In this document: positions 7,955-40,049 of the stretch, in pieces
Position numbering within the stretch: the stretch's first letter is position 1
How the letters are laid out: the number at the start of each line of letters is the position of its first letter
DNA from: Flavobacteriales bacterium
Lineage (GTDB): Bacteria; Bacteroidota; Bacteroidia; NS11-12g; UBA955
DNA: 42,040 nucleotides
Reading direction: 5' to 3'
NCBI GenBank assembly: GCA_947487055.1
Contig: CANKVN010000008.1
Location: 1 to 42,040 of the forward strand
Program-made: the position numbers and the translations under genes
Notes under the pieces: model-generated
What the model saw: only the letters and a program-made list of their open reading frames with translations
Database searches by the model: none
Told to the model about the DNA's origin: nothing

Positions 7955-10126
7955 TTATTTAATCAGGCTCATCTCATTCAGCAGGTGGCCGGCACCGCCC
8001 AGTTTATCCATGATAAACAGGGTGAAGCGAATGTCAACGCTGATGGTGCGCTGAACAGCAGGCATAAATCCGAAATCGCTGGCAATGGCTTCCCAGTTGC
8101 CGTCGAATGCGGTACCAATCAGTTCGCCGTTTCCATTGATGACAGGGCTTCCGCTGTTTCCGCCGGTAATATCATTATCGGTCAGGAAGCAGGTGTGCAG
8201 CTCACCGTCTTTGTCGGCATACTGGCCGTAATCCTTGTTTTTAATGAGGTCGAGCAAAGTTTTTGGGGCATCAAATTCAAAGTCGCCAGCCTTGAATTTT
8301 TCAAGGTATCCATTGGCGGTGGTAAATGCTTTATATTGAACACCATCCTTTGGATCGTACTTCATGACAGTTCCGTAGGTCATGCGCATGGTACCATTGG
8401 CATCGGGGGCCATGGCTTTATCGGGGTTCATTTCAGACAATGCAGCCAGGAACAACCGGTCGGCGCGTGCTTTTTTGGCATTGATATCATCAAAAATGGG
8501 CTTTAATTCAACATTAAGTTTGGTGTTGTAGCCATTAACGATAGCAAAAATTGGATCCTTGGTAAGTTTGCCGTAGTTGGGCGCTTTCAGGAATTTAGCC
8601 ATTTTGGCCTTGTCGGTAAACATGGAAGTTTTCCAGAGGTAATCGGCCAGTTTGTTGTAATCGCGCTTGTATTTGGTAACCAGGTTATTCAGGTATACAG
8701 GCAGGTTAGCGTGATCAAGGTCTTCATACAGGTGGCGCAAGACAGCGGCAAGAACTTCTTTTTCGATGGGGGCGTGGAATTCCTTGAACATTTCATCCAG
8801 GCCTGCAGCCATTTGGCCGGCCATTTTCTGTGCTTCAGGCCCGAATTTGCCATCCTTCACCTCACGCGTCATACCACTGGTTTGCAATGCAAATACCATG
8901 GCCTGGCTGTTGGCGATACCATCCTGGAAATACACAGGGTAAAGGCCATACTGGTTCAGTTTCAGGTAAACTTCGTCATACAGCGAGGTTACTTCTCCGT
9001 ATAGGTCTTGTTTGTTATTGGCTTTCACCCAATTTTCGAATTCACGTTCAATCTTTTTGCGGTTTTCGAACATTTGTGGTTTGCTCAATTCTCCGGCTTC
9101 GCCGTTAAATTTATTCCAGTAGTTGCCCAGGCCGGCGAGTTTATCGCTGTACATGAGGCGAATGGTGGGATCCTGTTTCATGTACTTTTCGTACACATCC
9201 ATAATGTCGCGACGAACCTGCACACGCATGGGGCGCTCTTTGCTGCCAAGGTAGCGAACGCCCTCGCTGTAGGTGTAGCGGGTGGTGCGGCCTGGATATC
9301 CCATAATCATTGCAAAATCGCCTTCAGTTGTGCCTTTCAGGCTCACAGGGAAGAACTTTTTGGGCTCATAAGGCTTGTTGTTTACATTCATATCTGCAGG
9401 CTTATTGTTGGTGCCTGAATAGATGCGGAACATGCTGAAATCGCATGTGTGGCGGGGCCAGCGCCAGTTGTCGGTTTCGCCGCCGAATTTGCCCACATTT
9501 TCGGGCGGTGTTCCTACAAGTCGAATGTCCCTGTATACTTCGTAATACATGGCCAGGAAGCGGTTGCCGCCCCAGAAGGGCACTACTTCAACGGCGTAAT
9601 TGCTTTTTTCTTCACCCAATGATTCTATCAGGTCTTTCTTGGCTTTGGTAGCAGCTTCATTTACCGCTTTGGTGCGGTCGGCTTCGGTCATGTTTAGGGC
9701 AATACCGTTCAATACCTTTTCGGTTATGTCTTCTACTTTTCTAAGCAAACCGATATTGAAACTGGCAGGGCGCTCTTCCTGTTTGGATTTTGCCCAAAAA
9801 CCATTACTAAGAATGTTGTCCTGTGGTGTGCTCAGTTCCTGAATGGCTCCATAACCGCAGTGGTGGTTGGTGAGGAAAAGGCCTTCACGGCTGATGATTT
9901 CGCCGGTGCAGAACATGCGTCCCTGCTTGCTCATCAGTCGCACAACAGCGTCTTTCAGTGAAGCGTTGTTGATGCTGTAAATGTCTTCAGCAGTCAGTTT
10001 CAATCCTTTTGCCTGCATGGGGTCTTGTAGTTTGGCCACCATGGTCAGGGGCCACATGCCCTCATCGGCGTGCAACATGGCCATACTTCCTATGGCCAGT
10101 AGTAACGAAAGAATACGTTTTTTCAT
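7955..10126 (-). CDS. S46-family dipeptidyl-peptidase, DPP7-like
   Basis: A full-length 723-residue S46 serine peptidase. It has a signal peptide (MKKRILSLLLAIGSMAMLHA) and a mature start DEGMWPL typical of the family. The catalytic triad is visible as His89 in LTNHHCGYG, Asp229 in RHTCDFSMFR and Ser658 in TGGNSGSPV. S46 enzymes remove dipeptides from peptide N-termini in the periplasm or at the surface and feed amino-acid catabolism. The residue 18 after the catalytic Ser is Gly676 (FDGNWE). In Porphyromonas enzymes Gly at this place marks DPP7 (hydrophobic P1) and Arg marks DPP11 (acidic P1), so DPP7-type specificity is inferred. The gene is monocistronic, with a strong terminator downstream; a weak -7-like CATCTTTG lies upstream. 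Confidence 0.95.
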   Translation of the reverse strand: MKKRILSLLLAIGSMAMLHADEGMWPLTMVAKLQDPMQAKGLKLTAEDIYSINNASLKDAVVRLMSKQGRMFCTGEIISREGLFLTNHHCGYGAIQELSTPQDNILSNGFWAKSKQEERPASFNIGLLRKVEDITEKVLNGIALNMTEADRTKAVNEAATKAKKDLIESLGEEKSNYAVEVVPFWGGNRFLAMYYEVYRDIRLVGTPPENVGKFGGETDNWRWPRHTCDFSMFRIYSGTNNKPADMNVNNKPYEPKKFFPVSLKGTTEGDFAMIMGYPGRTTRYTYSEGVRYLGSKERPMRVQVRRDIMDVYEKYMKQDPTIRLMYSDKLAGLGNYWNKFNGEAGELSKPQMFENRKKIEREFENWVKANNKQDLYGEVTSLYDEVYLKLNQYGLYPVYFQDGIANSQAMVFALQTSGMTREVKDGKFGPEAQKMAGQMAAGLDEMFKEFHAPIEKEVLAAVLRHLYEDLDHANLPVYLNNLVTKYKRDYNKLADYLWKTSMFTDKAKMAKFLKAPNYGKLTKDPIFAIVNGYNTKLNVELKPIFDDINAKKARADRLFLAALSEMNPDKAMAPDANGTMRMTYGTVMKYDPKDGVQYKAFTTANGYLEKFKAGDFEFDAPKTLLDLIKNKDYGQYADKDGELHTCFLTDNDITGGNSGSPVINGNGELIGTAFDGNWEAIASDFGFMPAVQRTISVDIRFTLFIMDKLGGAGHLLNEMSLIK

Positions 10127-15626: not shown

Positions 15627-18600
15627 ATGCGCAAAATTTTATTTTTGACTTGCCTGATGGCCTCGTTAAGCAGCCTTTCAGCCCAGTTATTGCCATGGGC
15701 CAAAGGGAATACCTACAGGCGCGCCGACAACCCCATGTACTGGAAAAACAAAAAGCCATATGAAGGATACTGGCAGCAGGATGTTTATTACCAAATAAAA
15801 GCCACACTGGATGATTCTGCAGAAACAGTTTCCGGGTCACTTCAGCTGGTGTATTACAACAATTCGCCTCACGTATTGAATGAAGCCTACTTTCACTTGT
15901 ACCAAAATGCGGTGCAGCCAGGAAGTCTGGTGGACGAGCTGTACACCTCAAATAAAACCCCGCACACCTTTGGCCGTTATGAGCAACAACAAAAAGGAAC
16001 CGAGATAAGCAGTTGCGCCATTGACGGCAAGGCTGTTGATTTTTCCATTGATTTCACGGTCATGAAATGTGCATTGGATAAACCTTTGCAACCTGGCGAC
16101 AGCTGTGTTTTCAACATCCAATTCAAAACGTATTTCGACCGCGGAAGCATTCGCCGCCGCATGAAAGTATATGACCACCACGGCTACAAACATTTTAATG
16201 GTGTTCACTGGTATCCTCGGATTTGTGTTTACGATAGAAAATTTACCTGGGAAACAGCACAGCACATGGAGCACGAGTTTTACGGTGATTTTGGCGCGTA
16301 TGATGTGGAGCTGAATTTGCCCAACCATTATGTGAACGAAGCCACCGGAGCACTGCAAAATCCCGAAGAGGTGTACCCCGGAGATTTGCGTCAGAAGCTG
16401 GACATTAAAAATTTTGAAGCAAAGCTGGTAGGCTCACAGCCATCCGTTATTGTGGATCCAAATGGTTCGTTGAAGGCGTGGCGCTACCATGCAAGAAATG
16501 TGCATGATTTTGCCTGGACGGCAGATCCCACTTACCGCATAGGTGAAGTAAACTGGAATGGTGTTCAGTGTATAGCACTGGCGCAGGAAAATAATGCTGC
16601 CGGATGGCAACAAACAGCTCAGTTTACAGCGGATGTCATTGCCACCTACAGTGAGGATTTTGGCATGTATGAATATCCTAAAATGGTGGCAGCAGATGCT
16701 GCAGATGGCATGGAGTATCCCATGCTCACGCTTGACGGAGGTATGTACCCCAGCCACCAGGGTCTGATTGCCCACGAAGTAGGCCACAACTGGTTTTTTG
16801 GCATGGTTGGCAACAACGAAACATACCGCGCCAGCCTGGATGAAGGATTTACCCAGTTTTTAACATCGTGGAGCATGAAGAAACTAAGTGGCAGAAAGGG
16901 ATTGGGCGTGGATTACGGTACGGTGTATGCCGGTTATATGTTTGATGCACTCGATGGCGAAGATGCCGTGCTGAACACCCACAGCGATGATTTTGAAAAC
17001 GCAATTGGCCATGGCGGCGGATACCGTCATGTATATTACAAAACCGCAACCATGTTGTACAACCTGCAATATGTATTGGGCGATGAGGTGTTTTCTCAGG
17101 CCATGAAGGATTATGTTAAAAGTTGGAAAATCTGTCATCCTTACGTGGAAGATTTCCGTCAGAGCATCATCATGAGCGCAAAAACGGATTTAAACTGGTT
17201 TTTTGACCAGTGGTTCGAGACCCGAAAGGCCGCAGATTATGCCGTTAAGGTAAAAAAAGCAAAAGATAATTATACCATTACCCTGAAACGCAAAGGCGAT
17301 ATGGTGATGCCGCTGGATGTTGTGGTTATTGGCAAACAGGCGAACAATCAGCCATTTGCCTTAACCTATACGATTCCCGTGAGCCAATACCAAAAACCGG
17401 GCTCGGTGAACCTGAAACCCTGGATTGGATGGGGTAAGCTGAGGCCTTCTTATGATTTCAGCATCCTTGCACCAGGAAAAGTAGACCTTATCATCATTGA
17501 TCCATCGCAGCGTTTGGCAGACATCAACCGTATGAACAACCAATGGCCCCGCAGTTATTCCTGGCAGTTCGATAAAGAAAACGGCAAGGACAACAGCTTT
17601 TTGGGTGGGTATAAAATGCAGTTGCGCCCCGATCTTTGGTACAACACAACGGACGGAATCAAGACGGGCATAAAGTGGAACGGCCAATACGCCATGCGCA
17701 GGCATGTTGCCGAATTGTTTGCCTGGTATGGCACCGGGTTGGGAACATATTTAGGAACAAATGCACCACAGGACCGCATATCGTATTTGTTCAATTACAC
17801 GCACGAAATTCGCCGCAAAGGCAGTATTACCCTGCAAAGCCGCTTTTTGGCAGGTTTGGAGCAGCACAAAGCAGGCTGGTTTATGGAAGATGCCCACGGT
17901 AAGTGGTACACCGACCTGAAACTCATGCGGAGACACCGTTTTGCGTATTTGTATCCTTATGGTGATGTCAATTTACGTGCGGGATTCATACCCACGGATG
18001 GATTCTGGAGCCCGGGCAGCAACCATACCTTCACGCTGGGCCGAAAACAGGATTACCGCACCCTTCGCGGTTCCGGCAGCATAGATGTAAACTTCCGCAA
18101 CGCCCTTCCCTGGAGCGATGCGCAGTTTGGAATGGTTAAGCTAACCTGGCTAAACGAAATAAAATGGAGCAAGATTGATTTGAAAACCCGGGTTTTTGGC
18201 GCGCTTGGCAAAGGCACACGGATACCCGCAGAATCTGCATTGTATGCCTGGGGCGCATCGCCAGAGGACTTGCAGGACAATAAATTTACCCGCGATTTAG
18301 GAAGCATTCCTATGGGCGATTTGAACCTAAACTATGCCTCTATCGGAAATGCCCTGGGCATGGGCGGTGGATTGAATATCAGGGGAATGCAGGGCTACCT
18401 CGTCCCCACCAAAACCAAGGATACCACCATTGCCATGTTCAGGGGCAATCGTGGATTGTCGTTGAATACAGAGCTCGATTTTTCAAGGCTGTTTTCATTT
18501 TTACCCAAATTGGGCTGGCTGTCTGCGAATGTTTATTTGTTTGGCGATGCCGGTGTTATTGGACTTCCATTGCAAGGCAAACCCGTATATTCCGGATTGT

Positions 18601-18794
18601 TGGCCGATGCGGGCCTGGGCACCATGTTCAGCATCAAAAACTGGCAAATGTTCAGCCCGCGCAAGCGTGCGTGGTTTAAGGCGGCTTCACCGTTGCAAAT
18701 ACGCTTCGATATGCCCGTTTTTGTCAATGCAGTGGCCAAAGGCGATGATTACTTGAAATTCCGCTGGGTGCTGGGCATCAACAGGGCGTTTTAA
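15627..18794 (+). CDS. M1-family metallopeptidase with C-terminal outer-membrane barrel-like domain
   Basis: A 1055-residue exported protein with a signal peptide ending near SLSAQ20. The M1 catalytic domain holds HEVGH (383-387) and the third zinc ligand Glu406 (HEXXH-x18-E); GMEYP at 361-365 replaces the usual GxMEN. M1 enzymes are normally aminopeptidases. After about residue 630 the sequence turns to alternating beta-strands. It contains GGGLNIRGMQGY near 911-922, resembling the RGY/F loop of Omp85 barrels, and ends FRWVLGINRAF with a terminal Phe. I infer a surface or periplasmic peptidase tethered by its own barrel. It lacks a T9SS-type sorting domain. The catalytic assignment is firm and the barrel assignment moderate. 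Confidence 0.88.
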   Translation: MRKILFLTCLMASLSSLSAQLLPWAKGNTYRRADNPMYWKNKKPYEGYWQQDVYYQIKATLDDSAETVSGSLQLVYYNNSPHVLNEAYFHLYQNAVQPGSLVDELYTSNKTPHTFGRYEQQQKGTEISSCAIDGKAVDFSIDFTVMKCALDKPLQPGDSCVFNIQFKTYFDRGSIRRRMKVYDHHGYKHFNGVHWYPRICVYDRKFTWETAQHMEHEFYGDFGAYDVELNLPNHYVNEATGALQNPEEVYPGDLRQKLDIKNFEAKLVGSQPSVIVDPNGSLKAWRYHARNVHDFAWTADPTYRIGEVNWNGVQCIALAQENNAAGWQQTAQFTADVIATYSEDFGMYEYPKMVAADAADGMEYPMLTLDGGMYPSHQGLIAHEVGHNWFFGMVGNNETYRASLDEGFTQFLTSWSMKKLSGRKGLGVDYGTVYAGYMFDALDGEDAVLNTHSDDFENAIGHGGGYRHVYYKTATMLYNLQYVLGDEVFSQAMKDYVKSWKICHPYVEDFRQSIIMSAKTDLNWFFDQWFETRKAADYAVKVKKAKDNYTITLKRKGDMVMPLDVVVIGKQANNQPFALTYTIPVSQYQKPGSVNLKPWIGWGKLRPSYDFSILAPGKVDLIIIDPSQRLADINRMNNQWPRSYSWQFDKENGKDNSFLGGYKMQLRPDLWYNTTDGIKTGIKWNGQYAMRRHVAELFAWYGTGLGTYLGTNAPQDRISYLFNYTHEIRRKGSITLQSRFLAGLEQHKAGWFMEDAHGKWYTDLKLMRRHRFAYLYPYGDVNLRAGFIPTDGFWSPGSNHTFTLGRKQDYRTLRGSGSIDVNFRNALPWSDAQFGMVKLTWLNEIKWSKIDLKTRVFGALGKGTRIPAESALYAWGASPEDLQDNKFTRDLGSIPMGDLNLNYASIGNALGMGGGLNIRGMQGYLVPTKTKDTTIAMFRGNRGLSLNTELDFSRLFSFLPKLGWLSANVYLFGDAGVIGLPLQGKPVYSGLLADAGLGTMFSIKNWQMFSPRKRAWFKAASPLQIRFDMPVFVNAVAKGDDYLKFRWVLGINRAF

Positions 18795-36205: not shown

Positions 36206-38146
36206 ATGATTCGGATTACTTTGTTTATCGCACTGTTGCTGGGTGCAGTATCAACGGTAAAAACACAGGCTATCGTCCCTGATGCATTGCTGTGTGCCGA
36301 AAAACAACGTCTGGAAGGCCGGTTAAGGTTTAGGGTGAATCCCAGTATTTACCACGGTTACGATATTCACTACCACCGATATTTCTTTAGGGTAAATCCC
36401 AAGCGAAACGGCTATTTAAAAGCAAATGTTTACAGCGAGTTTACCGTGTTGAAGGATGCCGATAGCATTGGTTTTGACATGAAATCTTTTTTATTGGCCG
36501 ACAGTGTGCGTTACCATGGATTGCCGATACGCTTCACCCGAATTGGCGATATTATTTATGTGCACAAGCCGGGCAGGTGGCAAGCCGGGACCAGGGATTC
36601 GTTAACCATCTATTATCAGGGAAACCCGGCACTTTTTGGCGGCACCGGTTATTATGTTTACGATTTTCACGCTACCGGACCCTCGGTGCATACGTTGAGC
36701 CAGCCATACGGCGCCTATTATTGGTGGCCATGCAAGCAAACACTAACCGATAAAATTGATTCCCTGGATATGGTGGTAAGCACCCATCCCGATTTCAGGG
36801 TGGCCGGAAATGGTTTGTTGAAGGCAGAAACAGGGGTGAATGATACCGTTAAGCTGTTTCACTGGAAACACCGATATCCCATAGCAACCTATCTGGTGGC
36901 CATGGCCATTACCAATTACGAGCAGTTTAGCCAGTTTGCAACGTTTCACAACCGCCCGGATTCCCTGTTGGTGCTCAATTATGTTTTTCCGCAAAGCAAG
37001 GCTGATTTCGAAAAGGACGCGGCCCCCATTTTGCCCATGCTGCGGTTGTTCGACAGTCTTTTTGGCGAATATCCCTTCATGAAGGAAAAATACGGCCATG
37101 CGCAGTTTGCCTGGGGCGGCGGCATGGAGCACCAAACCATGAGTTTCATGGTGAATTTTAGTTTCGATCTGATGGCGCACGAACTTGCCCACATGTGGTT
37201 TGGTGATAAGGTTACCTGTGCCAGCTGGAAAGACCTTTGGCTGAATGAAGGATTTGCAACGTACCTCACAGCACTGGGTTATAAGTACCTTAAATCAAAG
37301 GATGAATGGCTGGATGTGATGCGGGGAATCAGGGATGATGTTACCGGGGTGGATGATGGCAGTATTTTTCCAAAAGACACCGTGCAGGTAAACCGGTTGT
37401 TCAATGGAAGGCTCACCTACAACAAGGCTGCATTTGTACTTCACATGCTTAGGGTAAAGGTAGGCGACACAACCTTTTATGCCGCTTGCCGCAAATATTT
37501 GGGCGGGCAGCGCGCCTATGGTTTTGCAACCACCAGCGATTTAAAAACATTGATGGAGCAGGAGTCCGGTATGAATTTGGATACCTTTTTTCAGCGCTGG
37601 TATATGGGTGAGGGTTTTCCGTATGTGAATATCAATTGGGTTCAAAAAGGAACAAAAATGCAGGTTTCGGTAAAGCAAAAACCCTCCAATCCTTCGGTAC
37701 CATTTTTTCAGTTGGCACTACCCATTTTGTTCAAAGGAAAAAGTAAAGATTCCTTGATAACCTTTTATCCATCTGCTTTGGAGCAAACCTTCGTTTTTCA
37801 GCTGCCATTCGCCGCGGATACCGCTGCATTTGATCCGGAAGTGACTGTTTTAACCAAAGCTGCCATTGGCGGAATGAATCAGGACAACGCTTTACCCAAT
37901 TGGGTTGTCATTAATGGAAATCCGGTCACAGGACGGTTTTTAGAATTAACCACCTTGAACATGAAAGTAGAAAAGCTGGAGATATTTGATTTAAACGGTA
38001 AAAAATGCCTTGAAACAGGCGCTGATTTTCTGCATGTTCCGGGAAAAAGCATTAAATTTGATGTAGGTACACTGGCGCCCGGAATGTACATGACCAAAAT
38101 TATTGGAAACGAGCAACAAACGACCTTAACGTTTATAAAACCATAA
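36206..38146 (+). CDS. M1-family aminopeptidase with T9SS-type C-terminal domain
   Basis: A 646-residue exported peptidase. The signal peptide is about 1-20. The zinc site is HELAH (325-329) with Glu348 in LNEGFATYL (HEXXH-x18-E). GGMEH (305-309) is the exopeptidase motif that holds the substrate N-terminus, so aminopeptidase activity is likely. The C-terminal 80 residues begin about WVVINGNPVTGRFLEL and run through IFDLNGKKCLE and LAPGMYMTKI to TLTFIKP, the form of a type A sorting domain for T9SS secretion. It is separated from the MbnP-like gene by 2 bp, so it belongs to the operon with the MbnP/MbnH-like pair. It differs from the M1 enzyme at 15627, which has a barrel instead. Confidence 0.9.
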   Translation: MIRITLFIALLLGAVSTVKTQAIVPDALLCAEKQRLEGRLRFRVNPSIYHGYDIHYHRYFFRVNPKRNGYLKANVYSEFTVLKDADSIGFDMKSFLLADSVRYHGLPIRFTRIGDIIYVHKPGRWQAGTRDSLTIYYQGNPALFGGTGYYVYDFHATGPSVHTLSQPYGAYYWWPCKQTLTDKIDSLDMVVSTHPDFRVAGNGLLKAETGVNDTVKLFHWKHRYPIATYLVAMAITNYEQFSQFATFHNRPDSLLVLNYVFPQSKADFEKDAAPILPMLRLFDSLFGEYPFMKEKYGHAQFAWGGGMEHQTMSFMVNFSFDLMAHELAHMWFGDKVTCASWKDLWLNEGFATYLTALGYKYLKSKDEWLDVMRGIRDDVTGVDDGSIFPKDTVQVNRLFNGRLTYNKAAFVLHMLRVKVGDTTFYAACRKYLGGQRAYGFATTSDLKTLMEQESGMNLDTFFQRWYMGEGFPYVNINWVQKGTKMQVSVKQKPSNPSVPFFQLALPILFKGKSKDSLITFYPSALEQTFVFQLPFAADTAAFDPEVTVLTKAAIGGMNQDNALPNWVVINGNPVTGRFLELTTLNMKVEKLEIFDLNGKKCLETGADFLHVPGKSIKFDVGTLAPGMYMTKIIGNEQQTTLTFIKP

Positions 38147-38148
38147 CC

Positions 38149-38919
38149 ATGAATAAAAAACACCTTCTGACCATAGCTGCAGGTATACTACTGGGTTTCT
38201 CAGCCTGCAGGGAAAAAACCGGGGAGCCATTGCAGGAGCCTTCCAAAGGCATAACCATTACCGTGCTGCCCACCTGGGAAGGGAATGCCATGGTTACCGG
38301 AAAAATGCAATACCAGAAGCCCGATGGTGAAGTGCTTCAATTGCGCACCTGGGGGATGATTATTGCCAAGCTTTCGTTGGTAAAGAACGACAACAGCCTG
38401 GTAATGCTTGGTGACGGCTATCAATGGATAGATGTGGCCAGCGGCCGCCTTTCATTTAACTATCCGGAAGCTCCAGTGGGAAGCTACAAAGGAATTCAGT
38501 TTCAGCTAGGTCCTGATTCTTCTGTAAACCACGGAGATCCAACCATTTGGCCTGCAAATCACCCATTGAATGGCAACCTTACAGGATTGCACTGGGGTTG
38601 GTCCGGTGGCTATATTTTTCAGGCATTCGACGGAGAGTTTAAAGACAGCATGAGCCAAACCGGTAACAAGGGTTTCTCGTTCCACACTGCCGGTAATCTG
38701 TTTAACCGCACTTTCTTTATGCCCGCTACCTTTGATTTGGATGGCACATGGAAAACCGCAGTTCTGGAATTTAAGGCAGAAGAATATTTTAAAAATCCTG
38801 TTGAAATTCATTTGAAAAACAAAGCGGTATCACACAGCACCGGAGCAGACGAAATAAACCTGATGAACAAGTTGATTGACAATGCGTCGGATGCATTTTC
38901 AGTGAAATCAGTGAAGTAA
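38149..38919 (+). CDS. MbnP-like lipoprotein (copper-binding family)
   Basis: A 256-residue protein with a lipoprotein signal (LLGFSAC, Cys20). The rest fits the MbnP-like domain: ITITVLPTW near the start, a central GLHWGWSGGYIFQAFDGEF (147-164, with Trp149 and Trp151), then FSFHTAG (177-182) and MPATFDLDGTW. In the described MbnP/MbnH pairs MbnP is a periplasmic protein in which a tryptophan is oxidised to kynurenine by MbnH to form a copper site. The modified Trp here cannot be picked from the sequence alone. It lies 2 bp after the M1 gene and 5 bp before the di-heme enzyme, a tight operon. No methanobactin or copper-export gene is present. Confidence 0.82.
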   Translation: MNKKHLLTIAAGILLGFSACREKTGEPLQEPSKGITITVLPTWEGNAMVTGKMQYQKPDGEVLQLRTWGMIIAKLSLVKNDNSLVMLGDGYQWIDVASGRLSFNYPEAPVGSYKGIQFQLGPDSSVNHGDPTIWPANHPLNGNLTGLHWGWSGGYIFQAFDGEFKDSMSQTGNKGFSFHTAGNLFNRTFFMPATFDLDGTWKTAVLEFKAEEYFKNPVEIHLKNKAVSHSTGADEINLMNKLIDNASDAFSVKSVK

Positions 38920-38924
38920 AAAAC

Positions 38925-40049
38925 ATGGTATACAGGGGCTTAATTGGTTGGTTTTTGCTTACTGCTGCGGTGGTGGTTTTCTCCTGCCGCAAAGAACCTG
39001 CATTGCCCAAGGAGGCTGCCACTTATGGCACAACCCCTATCAACCCCAAAAGCATTTTTCCCGAAAAATACGGGATGCCTGCTTTACCTTCCGATAATCC
39101 ATTAACGGAAGAAGGGGTTTACCTGGGCCGCATGTTGTTTTACGATCCTGTATTGTCCATAGACAGCACCATTTCTTGCGCCAGCTGCCATGCGCAGGAG
39201 CATGCATTTGCAGATCCCAACCGCTACTCAACCGGTGTTTTTGGACTCACCACCAACCGAAACGCGCCACCTTTATACAACCTCGCCTACAGCAGGGTGT
39301 TTTTCTGGGATGCCCGTCAAAAAACGCTGCGCGAGCTGGTTTTGGAACCCATACAGGCTCACAACGAGATGGCGCTGACCTTGCCATTGTTAAAGAAAAG
39401 GTTGTCTGCAATTCCAAGGTATCAGCAGTGGTTTAGAAAAGCATTTGGCAGCGAGCCGGATGTGTTCAACATGACCCTTGCGATGGAGCAGTTTTTATTG
39501 ACCCTGGTGAGCAAGGATGCCAAATTTACCAAAATGTGGCCTGGCAATTTTGATTTGCTAACAGCCCAGGAGCTGGACGGATTAAGGCTTTACAATGGAT
39601 TGGTGGATGTCAATCCGTTAACAGGAGCGCTCAGCGGCGGTGCAGACTGCTTTCATTGCCACGGCAGTGTTTTTGCGCAGGCGAACAATCCCAATTTTGG
39701 GGGTATAGCCAATAATGGACTGGACGCTGTAATCACCGATAAAGGTTTTGGTGGCATAACCGGCAGGTCATCGGACATAGGAACCTTCAAAACCCCTTCT
39801 TTGCTGAATGTGGGACTTACAGCACCATACATGCACGATGGCCGCTTCACAACACTGGATGAGGTAATCAACCATTACAGTGATCAAATAAAATATGCTT
39901 CGCCCAATTTGAATCCTCAGATTAAGGTGCATGGACCAAAACAGCGTTTGCTTTCACCGTCTGAAAAAGCAGCGTTGAAGGCATTTTTGCTAACCATGTC
40001 AGACACGGTATTCGTGAACAACCCGGCGTACAAAAATCCGTTTTTGTAA
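38925..40049 (+). CDS. MbnH-like di-heme cytochrome c peroxidase/MauG-family protein
   Basis: A 374-residue exported di-heme protein. It has a lipoprotein-like start (VVVFSC, Cys21), two heme-binding CxxCH motifs (CASCH 85-89 and CFHCH 242-246) and the family segments FFWDARQKTLRELVLEPI and TAPYMHDGRFTTLDE. This is the bacterial cytochrome c peroxidase/MauG family, to which MbnH belongs. Its position 5 bp after the MbnP-like gene favours MbnH-type modification of that partner over plain peroxide removal, but peroxidase activity is not excluded. It converges with metH across 19 bp without an evident terminator. Confidence 0.88.
   Translation: MVYRGLIGWFLLTAAVVVFSCRKEPALPKEAATYGTTPINPKSIFPEKYGMPALPSDNPLTEEGVYLGRMLFYDPVLSIDSTISCASCHAQEHAFADPNRYSTGVFGLTTNRNAPPLYNLAYSRVFFWDARQKTLRELVLEPIQAHNEMALTLPLLKKRLSAIPRYQQWFRKAFGSEPDVFNMTLAMEQFLLTLVSKDAKFTKMWPGNFDLLTAQELDGLRLYNGLVDVNPLTGALSGGADCFHCHGSVFAQANNPNFGGIANNGLDAVITDKGFGGITGRSSDIGTFKTPSLLNVGLTAPYMHDGRFTTLDEVINHYSDQIKYASPNLNPQIKVHGPKQRLLSPSEKAALKAFLLTMSDTVFVNNPAYKNPFL

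Follow-up and report, generated by a model that had tools for sequence, protein, structure and literature searches.

Why would an exported aminopeptidase be encoded directly beside a pair of proteins of the kind that turns a tryptophan into a kynurenine copper site? The question is raised by three open reading frames, all on the + strand and separated by gaps of 2 bp and 5 bp, at positions 36206-40049 of a 42,040-nucleotide stretch of DNA from a Flavobacteriales bacterium (the whole stretch is called the window here). A sequence-only reading of this DNA had described the three genes as a T9SS-type M1 aminopeptidase, an MbnP-like lipoprotein and a MauG-family di-heme enzyme, and the open reading frame coordinates and domain matches confirm both the gene set and its spacing. 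The lipoprotein signal assigned to the MbnP-like product also stands, with the refinement that the di-heme protein carries such a signal too. No methanobactin biosynthesis genes (mbnA, mbnB or mbnC) were found among the Pfam-annotated genes of the window, and no copper gene was seen in the flanks of its triad. A sigma-70 promoter scan scored under the shuffle mean; such a scan is uninformative for Bacteroidota.

The first gene (36206-38146, + strand) encodes an M1-family zinc aminopeptidase of 646 aa with a signal peptide (PF01433, 101 bits, E = 8.5e-29). Its zinc and catalytic residues are intact (HELAH at 325, NEGFA at 347, GGMEH at 305 and Tyr405), and the corresponding HEXXH-(18)-E motif, GXMEN-type loop and catalytic Tyr (H325, E326, H329, E348, GGMEH305 and Y405) are invariant in alignment A3. 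The C-terminal tail scores above the cut-off for the T9SS type A sorting domain TIGR04183 (29.3 bits against 23) and just under that for PF18962 (22.3 against 27), and a gene for the T9SS translocon protein SprA is found in the window's genome (G000). Together, the type A sorting domain and SprA identify M1 as predicted T9SS cargo, and these results support the identity first proposed for the enzyme. Elsewhere, the window encodes a second, larger M1-family protein (15627-18794, 1055 aa; PF01433, 59.9 bits) and a Peptidase S46 family protein (7955-10126), another peptide-degrading enzyme.

The second gene (38149-38919, + strand) encodes an MbnP-family lipoprotein of 256 aa, with the lipobox cysteine at Cys20. 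The protein scores 83.4 bits against PF20243, where the cut-off is 27. Against the NCBIfam MbnP equivalog TIGR04052 it reaches 35 bits, under the cut-off of 140, and five other Bacteroidota MbnPs reach 29-49 bits. A phmmer search with the window protein directly against the PDB gave no MbnP match. A profile search reached 7L6G, the MbnP of Methylosinus trichosporium OB3b, only weakly (E = 0.013), with the NHS...GMAWNW segment aligned with NHGD...LHWGW. An AlphaFold model, for which seven relatives were used alongside the window protein, has a mean pLDDT of 70.6. It matches 7L6G with a Z score of 14.6 (206 residues aligned, rmsd 3.4), and the next entry has a Z score of 5.4. Foldseek with this model returned six 7L6G chains (E = 6e-6) and nothing else below E = 0.001. 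This match of the predicted structure settles the MbnP fold, with low confidence for the WxW loop, around residues 144-154, where the model is weak. Identification as MbnP, based on the Pfam score and the predicted fold, is solid and bears out the earlier assignment. An MbnH-type di-heme gene lies 5 bp 3' of the window's mbnP, and the same arrangement is seen in 22 triads from fetched regions.

The third gene (38925-40049, + strand) encodes an MbnH/MauG-type di-heme c lipoprotein of 374 aa, with a lipobox cysteine and a CCP_MauG domain (PF03150, 160 bits, E = 6e-47). The best NCBIfam model for this protein is TIGR04039, a hypothetical equivalog for MbnH, at 203 bits and under its cut-off of 362.85; TIGR03791, for MauG, gives 139 bits against a cut-off of 444. 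Two CXXCH heme motifs are present (CASCH at 85-89 and CFHCH at 242-246), together with Trp128, Glu148 and Tyr318. The best solved relative is the MbnH structure 6E1C. Tyr318 aligns with the Met ligand position of cytochrome c peroxidases, and 6E1C also has Tyr here, as does MauG at its second-heme ligand position. In a tree of 88 di-heme proteins, which includes 6E1C and only two cytochrome c peroxidase references, the window protein groups with MbnP-linked enzymes on the 6E1C side (support 0.87, on a weak backbone) and not with ordinary cytochrome c peroxidases. The Tyr ligand position and the tree thus support the MbnH identity. As a specific marker of MbnH this Tyr was rejected: nearly all Bacteroidota homologues examined carry it, including unlinked di-heme paralogues in these genomes, and it is therefore not specific to MbnP partners. 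Because of this and the weak tree backbone, the pairing with MbnP is at least as important as the sequence in naming the protein MbnH.

We examined how regularly the genes recur together in 70 genomes of the window's own family, largely uncultured Bacteroidota. MbnP is present in 67 of them, and 62 of the 70 have a same-strand M1 gene immediately 5' of it, so the gene order is not unique to the window's genome. All 22 fetched triads are arranged as M1-MbnP-MbnH, and neighbouring genes in them overlap slightly or lie up to ~100 bp apart. That so many genomes share the M1-MbnP order, and that every fetched triad is ordered alike, indicates that the arrangement is not due to chance. Among the exceptions that encode MbnP, two are at contig ends (G004 and G033, the latter retaining the tail of M1), and two genomes that are 70-77% complete (G002 and G021) have MbnP and no close M1. 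In G024, M1 and MbnP are separated by three inserted genes, and no other clear break was seen. One genome of the window's genus (G039, 99% complete) is without MbnP and the linked M1. We rejected this case as evidence for co-loss of the triad because MetH and aldehyde dehydrogenase of the same region are missing too, which points to loss of a larger segment or to an absent contig. In G027, a tandem second MbnP/MbnH pair lies directly 3' of the triad (L146, 5397-9175).

The surroundings of the triad are less constant than the triad itself. Near genera retain EamA, aldehyde dehydrogenase and MetH neighbours around it. Eight genomes (G003, G011, G015, G026, G027, G031, G032 and G040), which belong to the distant genera g3, g4, g9, g11 and g12, have an intact triad and zero flanking genes in common with the window. 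Where the flanks of distant triads were checked, they held housekeeping genes, among them those for an rRNA-type methyltransferase, SecG and a sugar epimerase. Compared with the window, the most distant triads show identities of 33-38% for M1, 27-33% for MbnP and 42-50% for MbnH. The distance matrices of the three proteins across the 22 triads are correlated (r = 0.89, 0.91 and 0.87), and 0 of 2000 permutations gave values as high. Because the triad persists across the family as nearby genes vary, a joint role of M1, MbnP and MbnH in obtaining or handling copper is likely. We also considered M1 and an RlmI-like gene as an ancestral fixed pair and rejected it, as the two occur together only in genus g4 and the pair is absent from the sister family.

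Does the linkage extend beyond this family? MbnP occurs in 222-226 of the 296 Bacteroidia genomes sampled, and pairs of MbnP and MbnH without M1 are widespread in the class. Among the MbnP loci fetched from other families (57, a few of them overlapping, with ~1.5 kb of upstream sequence if the contig reached that far), no M1 gene above 100 bits was found near MbnP. M1 orthologues are likewise widespread in Bacteroidia without MbnP and common in other families, where those with flanks read are unlinked to MbnP; 17 named M1 loci, taken with flanks of at most 8 kb, contain no MbnP. Since each is widespread without the other, M1 and MbnP/MbnH do not need each other. The window's M1 shares domain order and an intact zinc site with T9SS-exported M1 aminopeptidases of Bacteroidia and differs from them in its linkage to mbnPH; with this link missing from the other sampled families, the operon belongs, as far as sampled, to the window's family. 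A comparison of linked and unlinked M1 enzymes revealed no triad-specific residues of note, so the M1 sequence gives no support for a dedicated copper role and the sole argument for one is the conserved linkage. The sequence-only reading had singled out the pair outside a methanobactin locus for follow-up. The weight given to this was overstated, in light of the MbnP counts above and of a 2013 description of MbnP/MbnH pairs far beyond methanobactin producers (PMC3621798). The window's genome contains a second MbnP/MbnH pair, of the ordinary GMYWSW type (L167, G000:C59, 6915-8572 and 8613-11432). The next genes encode a T9SS-tailed YHYH protein and an M28 peptidase, in that order, so here too a pair lies close to a metallopeptidase that is probably secreted.

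The window's MbnP carries the motif H148-W149-G-W151, in which Trp149 is the candidate modified residue. Across 113 MbnPs, the first Trp of WxW is present in all 113 and His179 in 112. The residue before this Trp is His148 in 54/54 HWxW proteins, whereas the 59 others usually have Phe, Tyr or Ile there, and His229 is found in all 54 HWxW proteins. Position 147 is Met in 57 of 59 ordinary MbnPs and Leu in 15 of 31 triad MbnPs, the window's included. In the weak sequence alignment described above, Leu147 of the window protein lies opposite the Met of the 7L6G segment GMAW. His and Met are reportedly copper ligands in OB3b MbnP, according to a 2021 paper. In the MbnP tree, the HWxW subfamily essentially makes up one clade (support 0.99), which also takes in three proteins of non-HWxW type; nested in it, the triad MbnPs fall together in a single clade (support 0.92). 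In CorA, Cu(I) sits among two histidines, a water and a kynurenine close by (PMC3912023), and by likeness to this protein we infer that the copper site of the HWxW subfamily may be a His-rich variant.

Members of the HWxW subfamily are also found in other settings. At L160 and L107-L110, an HWxW-type MbnP is followed by two di-heme genes, with an apparent aldehyde dehydrogenase upstream in L107, L108 and L110. In the sister family, which belongs to the same taxonomic order (loci L234-L245, L157 and L158), HWxW-subfamily pairs share one arrangement that recurs in several genomes: TonB receptor, HMA-MauE protein, MbnP, MbnH and a small heavy-metal-associated (HMA) domain protein. The downstream HMA protein is present at 13 of 14 loci and the upstream TonB receptor with HMA-MauE at 10 of 14; at L234, a second MbnP replaces HMA-MauE. 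These sister-family neighbours support a metal-trafficking role for the HWxW subfamily, although the triads themselves are without such neighbours.

These data lead us to propose, with a probability of about 0.5, that the triad is a conserved operon in which MbnH makes a kynurenine Cu(I) site on MbnP and peptide cutting by M1 is coupled to copper handling. M1, mbnP and mbnH would be made from one shared transcript. M1 would be exported by the type IX system and would cut peptides, presumably at the cell surface. After export, membrane-anchored MbnH would oxidise Trp149 of membrane-anchored MbnP to kynurenine. Kynurenine formation would create a Cu(I) site richer in His than that of classical MbnP, with His148, His179 and perhaps His128 as candidate ligands, assigned by analogy, and Leu147 in place of the Met. 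MbnP and MbnH most likely make a kynurenine-dependent Cu(I) site on the lipoprotein. The coupling of peptidase and copper is the weakest step: the fixed linkage most likely reflects joint use of the breakdown of peptides and the handling of copper, and our leading guess is that copper freed from peptides passes to MbnP. We think it unlikely that M1 and MbnP form one acquisition system, in which M1 would strip amino acids from copper-chelating peptides and MbnP would capture the freed copper at an unusual His-Kyn Cu(I) site.

The main rival to release of peptide copper is shared regulation without direct cooperation, which is nearly as likely. M1 would then be merely a co-regulated neighbour of a normal MbnP/MbnH copper pair, an old general surface aminopeptidase with a promoter that the pair came to use, and the genes would stay together because an operon break would silence mbnPH. 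This explanation is a serious if tentative one: it accommodates the M1 orthologues that occur across Bacteroidia without MbnP, the lack of residues of note specific to linked enzymes and a linkage that arose in one family, and the block AldDH-EamA-M1-MbnP-MbnH-MetH among close genera can be read as passive synteny. This rival, however, fits poorly with the five distant genera, where the flanks are fully replaced but the triad is kept in the same order and with mostly near-zero spacing, and with G024 as the only clear break.

Two further rivals concern the MbnP/MbnH pair rather than M1. Because the HWxW motif differs from that of characterised MbnP, the subfamily might use the same Trp oxidation to a different end or to bind a different metal, such as Cu(II) or zinc. 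The strict His148, the replacement of Met147 by Leu in about half of the triad proteins and the HMA domains of the sister operon, which are not metal-specific, would all agree with this. Cu(I) is, however, what the two-His and kynurenine site of CorA binds (PMC3912023); a site rich in His can thus accommodate copper, and we doubt that the subfamily serves another metal or purpose. It is less probable still that the di-heme protein acts as a peroxidase in defence against H2O2, with MbnP as a structural partner whose Trp stays unchanged. Such a function would suit the CCP_MauG domain match and the unlinked paralogues that share the Tyr, yet it sits badly with Tyr, not Met, at the second-heme ligand position, with the tight MbnP pairing and the invariant WxW, and with a position in the tree apart from the cytochrome c peroxidases.

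To our knowledge, all characterised MbnP/MbnH pairs are from methanotrophs. The window's pair resembles that of OB3b (7L6G and 6E1C) in its predicted MbnP fold, its WxW motif, the adjacent MauG-type enzyme and the Tyr ligand position. It differs in the M1 gene upstream, the lipoprotein signal of MbnH, Leu for Met before WxW, His directly before Trp, the lack of methanobactin genes among the Pfam-annotated window genes, and scores below the NCBIfam equivalog cut-offs. MauG, of tryptophan tryptophylquinone synthesis, is a di-heme enzyme that acts on a protein Trp, as proposed for the window's enzyme, and likewise has Tyr at a heme-ligand position, but the partner of the window's enzyme is MbnP and not methylamine dehydrogenase. 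The methanotroph systems CorA/CorB and MopE/SACCP have a surface copper protein with a protein-derived kynurenine copper site next to a di-heme enzyme, as is predicted for the window's pair, and HWxW could form a two-His site of that type. The CorA motif is Trp62-x-His64, whereas the window has His148-Trp149, and neither MopE nor CorA shows marked sequence similarity to MbnP (PMC3621798).

In the literature searched, we found no paper on a link between M1 and mbnPH or on the HWxW subfamily, and the peptidase operon and the altered motif are provisionally new variants, as far as checked. MbnP/MbnH pairs are common in Bacteroidia, and the peptidase operon and the changed motif offer two testable handles on copper sites outside methanobactin producers. 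With its TonB receptor and two HMA proteins, the sister-family operon is the setting that points most clearly to metal trafficking, and it lends itself well to tests of the HWxW subfamily.
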